From NCBI RefSeq assembly GCF_021917145.1, contig NC_061064.1:4605475-4669474 (forward strand): DNA of 64,000 nucleotides, in the 5' to 3' direction. This document shows, piece by piece, positions 45,455-61,107 of the stretch (the stretch's first letter is position 1; every line of letters starts with the position of its first letter). This stretch comes from Hypomesus transpacificus (lineage: Eukaryota; Chordata; Actinopteri; Osmeriformes; Osmeridae). The position numbers were made by a program, and so were the translations under genes. The notes beneath the pieces were generated by a model. It had not been told where the DNA came from. It ran no database searches and saw only the letters and a list, made by a program, of their open reading frames with translations.

Positions 45455-45700
45455 ATATTGACGTAGGCCTACATATATGTTTAATAATACGTTCCATCTT
45501 TATGAAAAATACATCCGAATGCTCGACATAATGACGTACAAAAAAACGTAATAATGTGTTGTCTGCATACTTTATTGCAACATTACAGAGTTTGCTCATA
45601 TTTCTTCTGAACAAGCAGGTGAACAGTACAGCTTTCTCAGGAGATTTTCTCAGTCAGGCTAATCAGCCAATTTCGTGTTTTTGGTGAGTAATTCTTATTT
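45455..45700 (+). repeat. Promoter/first-exon duplicate, copy A
   Basis: This segment aligns with 46108-46355. Shared blocks include ATTGACGTA, AATGACGTA/TATGACGTA, ACGTAATAATG, AACATTACAGA, TTTCTTCTGAA, GATTTTCTCA and CCAATTTCG, followed by a donor gtgagtaattctta (45684 in A, 46340 in B). The offset is about 658 bp. It is interpreted as a duplicated transcription start and non-coding first exon of the gene at 46447. Confidence 0.75.
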
Positions 45701-46107
45701 ACTTATTAATTTTTACTTTGTATAATATTAGTCGTAACATTGTATTTTATTACTCCGTTTTATCCACATTGCCTGGTGAATGTTTGGAACGGTTGGAAAA
45801 CGGTGGCTTTTGGGTTTTAACAACGTTTCTGTAATTAGTTATTGCTTATGGAATTGTTCAAATCTGTGAATATATTTCCAACTTTGTTTTGGCTATGTGC
45901 AACCAATTAATAATTTATCAGTAAGGCAGAGATAATAATATGTAGAGAACCAGCCTTTTAGTGACAAATGGAATTTTAGTGCTGCTATATTCACAATGGA
46001 AACAGTTTTCCATTCTGATTATTTAAAAACTGAAAAAAACTGAAAGTAGTACTGTCATTGTTCATGCAATTCACGTTTTACAGAAAACACAATCGGAATT
46101 ACCAAAT

Positions 46108-46355
46108 GAGGAATATTGACGTATATTTATTTAAAATGATAGGCATAGGCTGTATAAATATGTGTAGCTTATGTCCAAATGCTACACATTATGACGTAGG
46201 CTACAACAACGTAATAATGGTGTACATTCATACTTTAATCTAACATTACAGAAGTACATCACATTTCTTCTGAAAAAGTGAACGGTATTTGCTGTCTAGC
46301 TTTCTCTGAAGATTTTCTCAAGCTAATCATCCAATTTCGGTGAGTAATTCTTAAC
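46108..46355 (+). repeat. Promoter/first-exon duplicate, copy B
   Basis: The second copy of the segment at 45455-45700. Its donor at 46340 can splice to the acceptor at about 46431, which precedes the start codon at 46447 by about 15 bases. Confidence 0.75.
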
Positions 46356-46446: not shown

Positions 46447-49400
46447 ATGGGTGAACAACTAAGGATACTGGTCAGAGAAATGGAGGAGGCCAAAATGGTA
46501 AGAGCCTTATATCAACTTATGTAAATGTTTAAACAGCAAACATGGTCAAATACCTCTCTGAGTGACTGTCTATAATGTAGGAAGTTGACCATGATGGGAC
46601 CACAATCCAAGAAAAGGAACAGGATTGGATATGTGGGGATGATCTTTCTCTCTGTTCACTTGATGAGGCAGATTATCTGGTCAGTAGTGTATGCATAGCG
46701 ATAGGTGAAAGGGATGACACCGACTTGGTAAGATCCTTATTTTACCTTAAACTTAAATGGTTAATCATCATACATGGTCAAATACCTCTGAGTGACTGTG
46801 TCTCTAATGTAGGGAGTTGAACATGATGGGACCACGATCCAGCCCAATGAAAAGGATTGGAAAAATGGGGACCATCTTTCTCTCCATTCATTTGACGAGG
46901 AAGATTTTCTGGTAAGTCTTTGCATAATGATAAGTGAAATGGATGAAACAGATGATAAGAGTTTGTATGAACTTAAACTTAAATGGTTATCAGCAAACAT
47001 GGTCAAATACCTCTGAGTGACTGTGTCTCTAATATAGGGAGTTGAATGTGGTGGGAACACAATTTCACATTTTCCCCTCTGCCCTGTTCCTGCACATTTT
47101 CCTTTACTCTTGGTCTCCCTAGAATCCTGTTATGGATTGTGCAGTCCAGGTCATTCCCCCTGGCTCTGTGAGACCAGACCAGGAGACCAGACCCCTGTGG
47201 GAGAGCCCCAACAGGCAGGCCATCAAGGCATCCCTGGAACTTCTTCAACTTGACATTGAAGTCACCCAGGATGTCATGAACACCGACGCCTACCCGAAAG
47301 AGGTGCCTGTTGCAAAGAGCCAGAGGCAAGGCCAGGTGGGTGCAGCCCTGAGACGGTGTGCAAACGAGTTCAGGGGGAGAAGACTCCAAAAGATCCAGAA
47401 AGACATGTTGGAACGGATCTTGAGAGAGTTTGAAGGACTTTACGAAGTCATGGACTCGGACCACGCGGATCACAGTGATGTGGAGCTGCATGAGATATGG
47501 CAGAGAGAGATCCAGAAGCTGCACATGGCGTGCAGGGCGTGCAGGGCCCTCACTGAGAAGACCAAGTGTATAGTTCAACAACAAAGGTCAACCCCTCTCA
47601 GGAAGAGAAGTGCACCGTCCAACGCTTTGTAAGTAATCAATACAGAAACAGTACATATTCATTGATTCAGCTATTGTTTACTTCAGAATAAGGGACTTTA
47701 TTCGCCATGAATGTTTGCACAAACAAGGAATTTACTTTGGCAGGGAGGTGCATACATTAAACATATAGGAATATTGAAACTTAAATATGTGGTCTAACTA
47801 TACAAAAGGAGCAAAGTCTAGCTAATACTAAGTAGCCACTTGTAGGTATAGCAGGGGCGAATCTAGGTTCCCACTTTTGGGGGGGCTAAGCCCCTAGATA
47901 AAACCTATTATTTTTCCTGTGACCAAGCAAAACTAGGGGGGTCTAGGGGCATGTTCCCCCAGAAGACATTTTTGAAAATATCCTTTTAAATAGTGTCCTC
48001 TAGTGGGGTATTTTTTTGGGGGGGGGCTAAAGAAACTTTAAAATAGGGCTAGATTCGCCCATAAGGTATAGAATGACACTATACTGATTAAGTTTGTTGA
48101 TCATCATCCTAAAGAGCCATGGAAAGATCCCAGGTCCCACATGCCAAAAGGTGATGTCTTCTCTTGTGACTGTGTCTCCCCAGGATCTACCCCAGATCAC
48201 TCCTGTGGTCCCCTTCACCATTGAGGATGACTTGGAATCCCCCCCTCTGACTCCTCCTACTCCCGAGGCTCTCCTCTTCAACCAGCAGCTTTCCCGGGCT
48301 TTGTCTCCCCTAAACCGTTTCACCGTTGGAGTTGTGACTCCTAGCAGGCCTGAGGAGACTCTACCTGCTGTGGGGTGTTTGCCCCACTCGCATATGCCAC
48401 CAATCACCCACTCGAGCGCTGATGCAAAGAAGCTGCTCCAAGGAGGATTGGAAGAGTACCAGCAGGTGGGTCATTATCATCACAGGCAAATATACAGTGC
48501 CCTCCAAAAGTATTGGAACAGTGAGGCGAATTCCTTTATTTTTGCTGTAGACTGAAAACATTTGGGCTTGACATCAAATAATGAACGTGAGACCAGAGAT
48601 CAACGTTTCAGCTTTTATTTCCAGGTATTTACATCAGGATCTGATGCACAACTAAGAAAATATCACATTTTGTTTGAATCCACCCATTTGTCATGTGAGC
48701 AAAAGTATTGGAACAGATATACTTAAAACATATTTAAGTGAATAAGACTTAATATTTAGTTGCAAATCCTTTGCTTTCAATAACTGCAGCAAGTCTGTGA
48801 CCCATTGACGTCACCAAACTTTTGCATTCTTCCTTTTTGATGCTTTCCCAGGCTTTCACTGCAGCCTCTTTCAGTTGTTGTTTGTTTTGTGGGGTTCCTC
48901 CCTTCAGTCTCCTCTTAAGCAGGTAAAATGCATGCTCTATAGGGTTTAAGTCTGGAGATTGACTTGGCCAGTCTAATACCTTCCATTTCTTGCCCCTGAT
49001 GAACTCCTTTGTTGTTTTGGCAGTGTGTTTTGGGTCGTTATCTTGCTGCATGATGAAGGCTCTGCCAATCAGTTTGGTTGCATCTTTCCTTAAATTGGCA
49101 GACAAAATGTTTCTGTAGACTTCCGAGGTCATTTTGCTGCTGCCATCATGTGTTACATCCTCAATGAAGATTAATGAGCCCGTCCCAGAAGAAGCCATGC
49201 AAGCCCAAGCCATGACATTACCTCCACCGTGTTTCACCGATGAGCTTGTGTGTTTGGGATCATGAGCAGTTCCTTTCTTTCTCCAAACTTTAGCCTTTCC
49301 ATCACTTTGGTAAAAGTTAATCTTTGTCTCATCAGTCCATAAAACTTTGTCCCAGAATTTTTGAGGTTCATCTCTGTACTTTTTGGCAATTTCCAGCCTG

Positions 49401-50437
49401 GCCTTCCTATTCTTCTTGCTAATGAGTGGTTTGCATCTTCTGGTGTAGCCCTTGTACTTTTGTTCATGAAGTCTTCTGCGAACAGTAGATAGTGATACCT
49501 TCACTCCTGCCATCTGGAGGTTGTTGCTGATCTCACTAACAGTTGTTTTAGGGTCTTTCTTTACAGCTCTCACAATGTTTCTGTCATCAACTGCTGATGT
49601 TTTCCTTGGTCTACCTGTTCGACGTCTGTTACTTAGTACACCAGTAGTTTTCTTCTTCTTCAGGACATTCCAAATGGTTGTACTGGCTATGGCCAATGTT
49701 TCTGCAATGGCTCTGATTGATTTTCCATCTTCTCTAAGACTCACAATTGCTTGTTTTTCACCCAAAGACAGCGCTCTGGTTTTCATGTTGTTTTCACCTC
49801 TGAATACAGTCTGCATAGACAAAACCTATCTTACCCAATCTGAACCTGAGTGTAGACATTCAGTGGTATTTATTGATTGAATAATGTATGTAATAGGACA
49901 CACCTGGGCAACAAAACACACCTGTCAGTCACATGTTCCAATACTTTTGCTCACGTGACAAATGGGTGGGTTCGAACAAAAAGGTGATATTTTCTAATTT
50001 GTGCATCAGATCCTGATGTAAATACCTGGAAATAAAAGCTGAAACGTTGATCTCTGGTTTCACATTCATCGTTTGATGTCAAGCCCAAATGTTTTCAGTC
50101 TACAGCAAAAATAAAGGAATTGGCCTCACTGTTCCAATACTTTTGGAGGGCACTGTATGATGACACTGTTAAAGCACAATATGCACAATAATAACGAATG
50201 ATGCTTGAAAAGAATCAGGATTTTCACTGGCAATTTTTTCTCAGCTCAGTGATTCGTCCACGTAAGCATGTGTTCTGCTTTCAGGATGTGACGGAAGACA
50301 CGACCGGCATCGCCAAGGCGATGTCGTACGTCCAACCACTGACTGTGGAGGAAGTCAGTGAGGAAAAGCAAGAGCATGAGTCCAAAAACTACGTGAAGGA
50401 GAAGAAAAAGAAAAAGAAGAATGTGGGAAAGAGGTGA
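46447..50437 (+). CDS. Unrecognised multi-exon gene with tandemly duplicated acidic exon
   Basis: I do not recognise this protein. Supported exons are 46447-46497, 46581-46679, 46813-46911, 47123-47628, about 48117 or 48184 to 48465, and 50285-50437. Exons 2 and 3 are each 99 bp, symmetric, and encode similar 33-aa acidic units (EVDHDGTTIQ/GVEHDGTTIQ, then LSLCSLDEADYL/LSLHSFDEEDFL). Exon 4 (168 aa) looks helical (LQKIQKDMLERILREFEGLYEV, HEIWQREIQKLH) and ends basic. Exon 5 is proline-rich with ESPPLTPPTP, LSPLNRF and VTPSRP, which are possible CDK sites. The last exon ends in a Lys tail (KEKKKKKKNVGKR), NLS-like. Exon 4 ends in phase 2. The strong acceptor at 48183 does not match that phase, but an acceptor ending at 48116 does, giving 418 aa. 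It starts head-to-head with polr2j. Confidence 0.6.
46521..47065 (+). repeat. Tandem exon-containing repeat, about 2.3 copies of about 230 bp
   Basis: The marker ACATGGTCAAATACCT recurs at 46540, 46772 and 46997 (spacings 232 and 225 bp), each followed by GAGTGACTGT, a TNTAATNTAG acceptor and GNAGTTGA. The first two copies carry complete 99-bp exons. The third keeps only the acceptor and about 25 bp before diverging into a pyrimidine tract that leads to exon 4. Confidence 0.9.
47852..48063. mobile_element. hAT-type MITE with perfect 8-bp target duplication
   Basis: A 212-bp element with terminal inverted repeats (CAGGGGCGAATCTAG left; the right end reads TATGGGCGAATCTAG when reversed). It is flanked by AGGTATAG at 47844-47851 and 48064-48071. 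An 8-bp duplication and CAG-starting ends are hallmarks of hAT elements. There is no coding capacity, so it is non-autonomous. It lies in an intron of the unrecognised gene. Confidence 0.85.
48495..50155 (-). mobile_element. Complete Tc1-like transposon with IR/DR ends
   Basis: A 1661-bp element bounded by TA dinucleotides (48493-48494 and 50156-50157). The outer ends begin CAGTGCCCTCCAAAAGTATT on both sides. Inverted repeats are about 225 bp long and carry an outer and an inner direct repeat. The core AAAAGTATTGGAACA occurs at about 48506 and 48701 on the left, and its complement at about 49936 and 50130 on the right. It sits in the last intron of the unrecognised gene, with its transposase antisense to it. 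Confidence 0.95.
48749..49822 (-). CDS. Tc1/mariner-type DD34E transposase, intact frame
   Basis: An uninterrupted 357-aa transposase that should cut and paste the element at TA sites. The N-terminal part has paired-like helix-turn-helix DNA-binding segments (SIRAIAETLAIASTTIWNVL, then STVRRRLHEQKYKG), separated by a GRPRK AT-hook-like motif. The catalytic triad is complete: Asp in LWTDETK, Asp in QQDNDPKHT, and Glu in PDLNPIEHAF, with exactly 34 residues between the last two. A Gly-rich GGGNVMAW box is present. The first in-frame Met is at 49822; a start at the internal Met of NNMKTRALS, closer to typical Tc1 starts, is also possible. The lack of stops or frameshifts suggests recent activity. 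Confidence 0.93.
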   Translation of the reverse strand: MSMQTVFRGENNMKTRALSLGEKQAIVSLREDGKSIRAIAETLAIASTTIWNVLKKKKTTGVLSNRRRTGRPRKTSAVDDRNIVRAVKKDPKTTVSEISNNLQMAGVKVSLSTVRRRLHEQKYKGYTRRCKPLISKKNRKARLEIAKKYRDEPQKFWDKVLWTDETKINFYQSDGKAKVWRKKGTAHDPKHTSSSVKHGGGNVMAWACMASSGTGSLIFIEDVTHDGSSKMTSEVYRNILSANLRKDATKLIGRAFIMQQDNDPKHTAKTTKEFIRGKKWKVLDWPSQSPDLNPIEHAFYLLKRRLKGGTPQNKQQLKEAAVKAWESIKKEECKSLVTSMGHRLAAVIESKGFATKY

Positions 50438-50859: not shown

Positions 50860-50980
50860 CACATCACAGATGCTTGACTAAATGTTGTTCTCAATAAAGT
50901 TATCATTTTGTGTTTCATTTGGTATTGGTTTTTGAGGGTTACTACTTGATGGTTATTACTGCACTGCTTCATGTGGGATG

Positions 50981-51180: not shown

Positions 51181-61107
<9,927 letters not shown>

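Follow-up and report, generated by a model that had tools for sequence, protein, structure and literature searches.

A frameshifted gene copy beside polr2j in Hypomesus transpacificus and its probable place in a multicopy, intron-containing family with one transposon-captured version

Between polr2j and cbl, a 64,000-nucleotide stretch of the genome of the fish Hypomesus transpacificus (the window; C5:4605475-4669474 of a 437-Mb, 376-contig assembly, where C5 is contig NC_061064.1 of GCF_021917145.1) carries a series of spliced coding exons. From comparison of related sequences, we hold with reasonable confidence that these exons are the copy linked to polr2j in a gene family that is multicopy, contains introns, and has no recognised relative, that one version of this family was captured by a transposon, and that the copy in the window is frameshifted. 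An earlier note on this DNA had proposed a lone undescribed gene at this position. The spliced coding exons it described are real, and they make up one member of a set of 26 or more related copies. Of greater interest than the window copy itself are the family and its carrier. Positions given without a contig or locus name are those of the window, exons are numbered as in Table 1, and the labels L009-L034 stand for fetched loci.

Related copies across the genome

Searches of the fish's own genome returned 26 matches with exon 4 of the window copy as the query, 27 with exon 4 of a dispersed copy, and 25 with that of a distant paralog; a few of the rows represent a second piece of a copy already listed, and the match counts are lower bounds. 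Relatives of exon 4 are present at no fewer than 25 loci other than the window. We judge the exons to be real because exon 4 recurs at these 25 other loci, with other exons alongside it in the copies that were read. Codon usage alone is weak evidence: exon 4 lies above 98% of background windows (0.017 score as high), exons 5 and 6 stand out less (above 89%, 0.11, and above 92%, 0.08, respectively), and exons 1-3 are indistinct from the background.

Five of the copies form a tandem cluster at C5:5.70-5.75 Mb, 1.1 Mb from the window, and share 90-94% amino acid identity with the window copy. Another 18 copies are dispersed over 12 contigs, with amino acid identities to the window of 34-39% in exon 4, and one copy on C196 is interrupted by a run of N. 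The distant paralog, L027 at C5:5.927 Mb, is 28-32% identical in amino acids to the window and 31-36% identical to dispersed copies. Its layout is that of the other copies: an acidic exon is followed by exon 4, here ending in a phase-0 donor, and then come a Pro-rich exon and a tail rich in Lys. No relatives of exon 4 were found in viral contigs, plasmids, or prokaryote genomes. C5, with 7.4 Mb and 1.7% of the assembly, carries 10 of 25 closer copies, or 5 of 20 loci when near neighbours are merged.

Several good splice sites and a polr2j-side flank common to the cluster copies speak for a lone, functional fish gene, so far undescribed, between polr2j and cbl. We nonetheless regard such a gene as highly improbable: the 25 other loci refute it as a single-copy gene, and its exons 4 and 5 clash in frame through a deletion that is lacking in the paralogs aligned.

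A frame clash in the window copy

Phase 0 is the only phase in which exon 5 is open, but the preceding exon 4 ends in phase 2. The earlier note listed no junction between the two. Compared with L028 and L029, whose reading frame stays in register with exon 5, the window copy lacks 4 bases in the tail of exon 4, and we attribute the frame clash to this deletion. As it is, the window product has 273 residues and ends at a stop in exon 5 (48248). The window copy would thus at best yield a 273-amino-acid protein that lacks the Pro-rich and Lys-rich parts, and it is probably a dying copy. What had been described as one gene is therefore not whole in the window copy, where the frameshift parts exon 4 from the Pro-rich and Lys-rich segments.

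A 61-bp cassette exon at 47687-47747 would restore the frame and leave the window copy intact. This candidate is open and has an acceptor of 7.3 and a donor of 4.5, but it falls within a 377-bp insertion in intron 4 that is lacking in the paralogs compared. In L028, L029, L030, L032, and L033, the sides of this insertion join at one base. Moreover, a frame-restoring exon at least as good appeared in 61 of 1000 dinucleotide-shuffled introns. We rejected the cassette exon, and an intact window copy restored by it is, in our estimate, extremely improbable.

Intron 5 of the window copy holds a second insertion, an element that, like Tc1 transposons, has inverted repeats and a long open frame resembling a transposase gene. 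Over a 901-bp stretch of this element, 40 of the 40 scored genome matches were 100% identical (977 candidates at first look). Because all scored matches are identical, the Tc1 family appears to have spread very recently, and it may be active. Unlike the gene's carrier, described next, this Tc1 element is a passenger in the window copy.

Capture by a TA-flanked transposon

L013, L015, and L021 start at a common terminus, TGGAGCTAGAAAGCTGACAAAA, with TA outside it and with different flanks, and L009 starts at the same terminus with one difference. The terminal repeats of this carrier are approximately 220 bp long. TA lies outside all seven intact ends that were read (both ends of L009 and L015, and one each of L013, L020, and L021), where a 2-bp TA duplication and a preference for TA are indistinguishable without an unoccupied site. 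Both ends are present in L009 (7.9 or 9.2 kb, with a Tc1 inside) and in L015 (8.4 kb). With at most 2 mismatches allowed, the 24-base terminus had 343 matches in the genome, and its reversed control had 0.

The carrier also exists without cargo. At L020, a short, cargo-free element is continuous, within a few bases, at the point where L015 holds a 6.9-kb insert; this short element is without the last bases of one terminus, and the gene copy at L020 lies outside it. The right-hand join of L009 is about 296 bp further in. The cargo of L009 corresponds to L023 2200-7378, which comprises the gene and gabarap exon 1. At L023, on C5, a gene copy stands directly upstream of gabarap (residues 1-116 of a GABARAP query were matched in pieces). 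Because L023 also holds the remaining gabarap exons, it is likely to be the source of the cargo or near to that source. We conclude that a TA-flanked transposon captured one version of the gene together with gabarap exon 1; that version is found in it at four loci.

Could the protein instead be the transposon's own accessory gene and not captured cargo? Four copies lie inside one kind of element, and the dispersed copies occupy 12 contigs, as might be expected of such a gene. However, among the 100 terminus matches listed out of 343, six +/- pairs are separated by 1.38-1.56 kb, which leaves no room for the gene, and the short element at L020 is without the gene at the position of L015's insert. 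The insert also contains gabarap exon 1, and searches of the window and of the stretches fetched for the remaining copies found neither the carrier terminus nor its repeat. We consider an accessory gene very unlikely. Under capture of a host gene, the preferred reading, the other dispersed copies would have moved by other routes, since no terminus lies in the stretches fetched.

Other features were seen in passing. A +/- pair of termini 9.9 kb apart (C1:11802387-11812316) is a candidate cargo-bearing or autonomous element. A carrier end is repeated at L009 7180-9770, with a spacing of about 1292 bp. At L020 730-1644, near the gene copy and the short carrier, there is a 304-amino-acid open frame that looks, by eye, like a pogo-type transposase.

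The window copy also has gabarap exon 1 on its downstream side, as a fragment, and the other gabarap exons had no match in the window. The gabarap gene with further exons, adjoining L023, is 2.1 Mb away on C5. The polr2j-side sequence of the window is held in common with the cluster copies. A tblastn search with polr2j peptides gave no match, and upstream in L023 a polr2j remnant is suggested by a weak match in DNA (74% over 69 bp). We infer that a block flanked by polr2j and gabarap was probably duplicated and that different parts of it were then lost.

Mosaic copies and probable exchange

The copies are mosaics of each other, and divergence between the window and the dispersed copies is uneven along the gene. 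Exon 4 is 60-64% identical in nucleotides and exon 5 is 81-83% identical. In the tree built from exon 4, a branch of 0.44 separates the groups; no branch so long occurs between them in the tree built from exon 5. Similarity of 82-95% is seen, when the sequences are aligned globally, over parts of introns 1, 2, and 4 and the 3' region, and by blastn the end of intron 3 and the start of exon 4 are alike at 81-93%. The synonymous substitution rate (dS) of exon 4 between the window and dispersed groups is 0.77. Positive selection alone is not favoured as the cause of the divergence in exon 4, given so high a dS while several introns are 85-95% alike. Because dS is also high while these introns are alike, we favour an older divergence of exon 4, the surroundings of which would have been homogenised through exchange between copies.

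Reading frames and selection on exon 4

For comparison, 21 units were cut out (the window copy, the 5 cluster copies, and 15 of the 18 dispersed copies). Exon 4 was found by its start motif in 19 of the 21 units and is a stop-free multiple of 3 in 17 of these 19, the exceptions being the window copy and L013. In the genome search, it is also open in L009 and L020, which the motif missed, and in L016-L018, which were not cut out. The 27 exon 4 stretches matched in that search contain zero stops.

Two clades of dispersed copies, B1 and B2, were compared over 32 pairs from 12 copies, without L009, L013, L016-L018, and L020. Between them, exon 4 had 0.135 substitutions per site, and the adjacent noncoding DNA had 0.173. 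Insertions and deletions (indels) per substitution were 0.013 in exon 4, by codon-guided alignment, versus 0.154 in the noncoding DNA next to it. When the DNA was aligned freely and the frameshifted L013 was added, the exon 4 value was 0.023; L009 contributes nothing to these free-alignment indel counts. Within B1, exon 4 had 0 indels per substitution (0.026 in the free alignment) versus 0.163 in noncoding DNA.

The ratio of nonsynonymous to synonymous substitution rates (dN/dS) of exon 4 was 1.09 (0.63-2.10) for B1-B2a, 1.19 (0.74-2.25) for B1-B2b, and 0.77 (0.45-1.59) for B2a-B2b. Within groups it was 0.42 for the window group, 0.59 for B1, and 0.76 for B2. A star-tree simulation, which overstates the independence of copies, gave P = 0.0001-0.04 that 8 of 8 chosen B1 copies stay open, and P = 0.0003-0.11 with L013 and L009 counted (9 of 10 open). 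From these figures we conclude that the exon 4 reading frame is guarded in most copies, while its amino acids are almost free to change or are even driven to do so.

With indels between B1 and B2 that are 7-12 times fewer than in neighbouring noncoding DNA, with none of the 27 matched stretches interrupted by a stop, and with low star-tree probabilities for both counts of open copies, a decaying family that spread passively and holds no functional copy seems unlikely to us, even if a dN/dS near 1, the visible defects among the units, and a weak indel contrast within B2 would fit it.

A number of observations do weigh against a family of maintained genes with one captured version and a frameshifted member in the window. 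The 4-base deletion could be an assembly error. The carrier is shown for 4 of the 18 dispersed copies, two of them with both ends, and exon 1 and the start codon were looked for in the dispersed copies and none was identified. As placed in the free B1-B2 alignment, 40 of 62 gaps are not in threes. Within B2, exon 4 had 0.030 indels per substitution (0.049 in the free alignment) versus 0.085 in noncoding DNA, which is a weak contrast, and all three between-clade dN/dS intervals take in 1 and lower values. Defects are visible in at least 7 of the 21 units: a stop in exon 2 of L030, a stop in exon 6 of L020, an altered exon 6 acceptor in L028, a shifted exon 6 frame in L009 and L022, and the exon 4 frames of the window copy and L013. 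As to an older exon 4 within exchanged surroundings, low identity extends to exon 3 and intron 3 in global alignments of the window with L023, L019, and L015 (59-66%); the same region is 87-88% alike versus L012, where tandem units may be mispaired.

Exons, splice sites, and neighbouring features

Among the window's translations, lrwd1, alkbh4, and polr2j (minus strand) and cbl (plus strand) are recognisable. Each exon named in the earlier note was located, with GT-AG borders throughout. Its description of the splice sites as good holds for most of them, which are fair to strong, and fails for the acceptors of exons 1-3, which are weak. The donors scored 8.75 (46497), 6.5 (46679), 10.6 (46911), 5.4 (47628), and 10.0 (48465). 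The weak acceptors scored 1.8 (46433, exon 1), 2.4 (46581), and 3.8 (46813), and the others 8.7 (47123), 7.7 (48184), and 8.6 (50285).

A putative noncoding leader exon precedes exon 1, and its donor string, GGTGAGTAATTCTT, is present in 18 of the 21 units. The leader region is duplicated with a spacing of 663 bp (window 45542-46278), and the upstream duplicate has diverged; the donor string occurs twice in 14 of the 26 fetched loci. The duplication that relates exons 2 and 3 is 80% identical over 164 nt, flanking intron included, and dN/dS between the two exons is 0.82 (approximately 20 changes). At the 3' end of the gene, the TGA at 50437 is uncertain as the terminus, and a donor at 50433 (10.4) may be joined to an acceptor at 50870 (10.6), after which AATAAA follows.

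Table 1. Features of the polr2j-linked gene copy and of the DNA inserted in or adjoining it (window positions).
Feature	Position	Strand	Remarks
Putative noncoding leader exon	46215..46339	+	Start approximate; donor TCG|GTGAGT, score 8.7
Exon 1	46447..46497	+	ATG; MGEQLRILVREMEEAKM
Exon 2	46581..46679	+	Acidic unit 1; 33 amino acids, net charge -10
Exon 3	46813..46911	+	Acidic unit 2; 33 amino acids, net charge -7; tandem duplicate of exon 2
Third acidic-exon unit	46989..47063	+	Truncated
Exon 4	47123..47628	+	Probably helical; 506 nt; 4-base deletion in tail
377-bp insertion, intron 4	47686..48062	.	Lacking in paralogs compared; holds the rejected cassette exon
Exon 5	48184..48465	+	Pro-rich; 6 (S/T)P sites; open in phase 0
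Tc1 transposon, intron 5	48493..50158	-	Open transposase frame 48749-49825
Exon 6	50285..50433	+	Lys-rich tail; TGA 50435-50437 if next donor unused
Possible short last exon	50870..50910	+	End approximate; acceptor 10.6; AATAAA signal
gabarap exon 1 fragment	51331..51414	+	Downstream of the gene

Predicted protein

The exon translations bear out the acidic repeats, the Pro-rich segment with (S/T)P sites, and the Lys-rich tail that had been noticed in this DNA before, and the protein was rightly left unplaced. No Pfam family reached its cut-off, the best being RDD1 in the Lys-rich tail (13.1 bits versus a cut-off of 27) and, for L027, DUF3456 (15.2 versus 21.1). No PDB chain was significant or convincing; a profile of seven exon 4 sequences gave a best E of 0.07, to a designed four-helix bundle. 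A search of the literature on the polr2j-lrwd1-alkbh4 neighbourhood found nothing relevant.

Copies free of visible defects would make a protein of about 400 amino acids (407 for exons 2-6 of L010). In such a protein, the two acidic peptides and the (S/T)P sites might dock partners, exon 4 might form a helical scaffold, and the Lys-rich tail might give nuclear or nucleic-acid binding. The acidic units, (S/T)P sites, and Lys-rich tail suggest, with low confidence, a nuclear or chromatin-linked adaptor. Fast change and amplification would suit genetic conflict, most likely in the germline, better than housekeeping. This context for the family is a guess that we make with low confidence because amplification, exchange, and fast change fit it. 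It is possible, and to our minds rather doubtful, that this is a conflict family partly expanded by a non-autonomous transposon that took up a whole spliced gene, promoter and poly(A) region included, with frames kept, amino acids diversifying approximately neutrally, and exons exchanged, and that an excess of its copies lies on a single contig, possibly a sex chromosome.

Comparison with known systems

A complete spliced gene as cargo, a cargo-free carrier, and a probable source locus are all seen in one fish genome. In the portions of the literature that were searched, most accounts of DNA transposons that capture host genes concern plants and fungi, and a vertebrate case may be in print. 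If the copies are in fact germline-expressed, the family would offer a tractable case of a transposon building a fast-changing vertebrate gene family. It also carries a caution, in that an apparently single gene of no known kind may be a damaged member of a large family.

The carrier is most readily set beside Pack-TYPE elements and transduplication, in which a short element without its own mobility gene moves a host segment (PMC8903248). As in those systems, the carrier takes a host segment to new places, terminal inverted repeats surround the cargo, and there are both a cargo-free element and a probable host source locus. The difference is that here a whole spliced gene with a leader and a poly(A) region, in a vertebrate, travels beside another gene's first exon; the text of PMC8903248 makes no mention of animal, vertebrate, zebrafish, metazoan, or complete gene. 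In fungi, a housekeeping gene, a DNA methyltransferase, has been described as amplified by a transposon, with copies of varied fates (PMC6710886). The amplification through a transposon is alike, whereas for the fish family no relative is recognised. A further point of comparison is offered by conflict-driven multigene families, such as X/Y co-amplified genes (PMC10618873) and wtf drivers (PMC9562144). Like them, the fish family is multicopy, fast-changing, partly concentrated on one contig, and apparently exchanging sequence between its copies.

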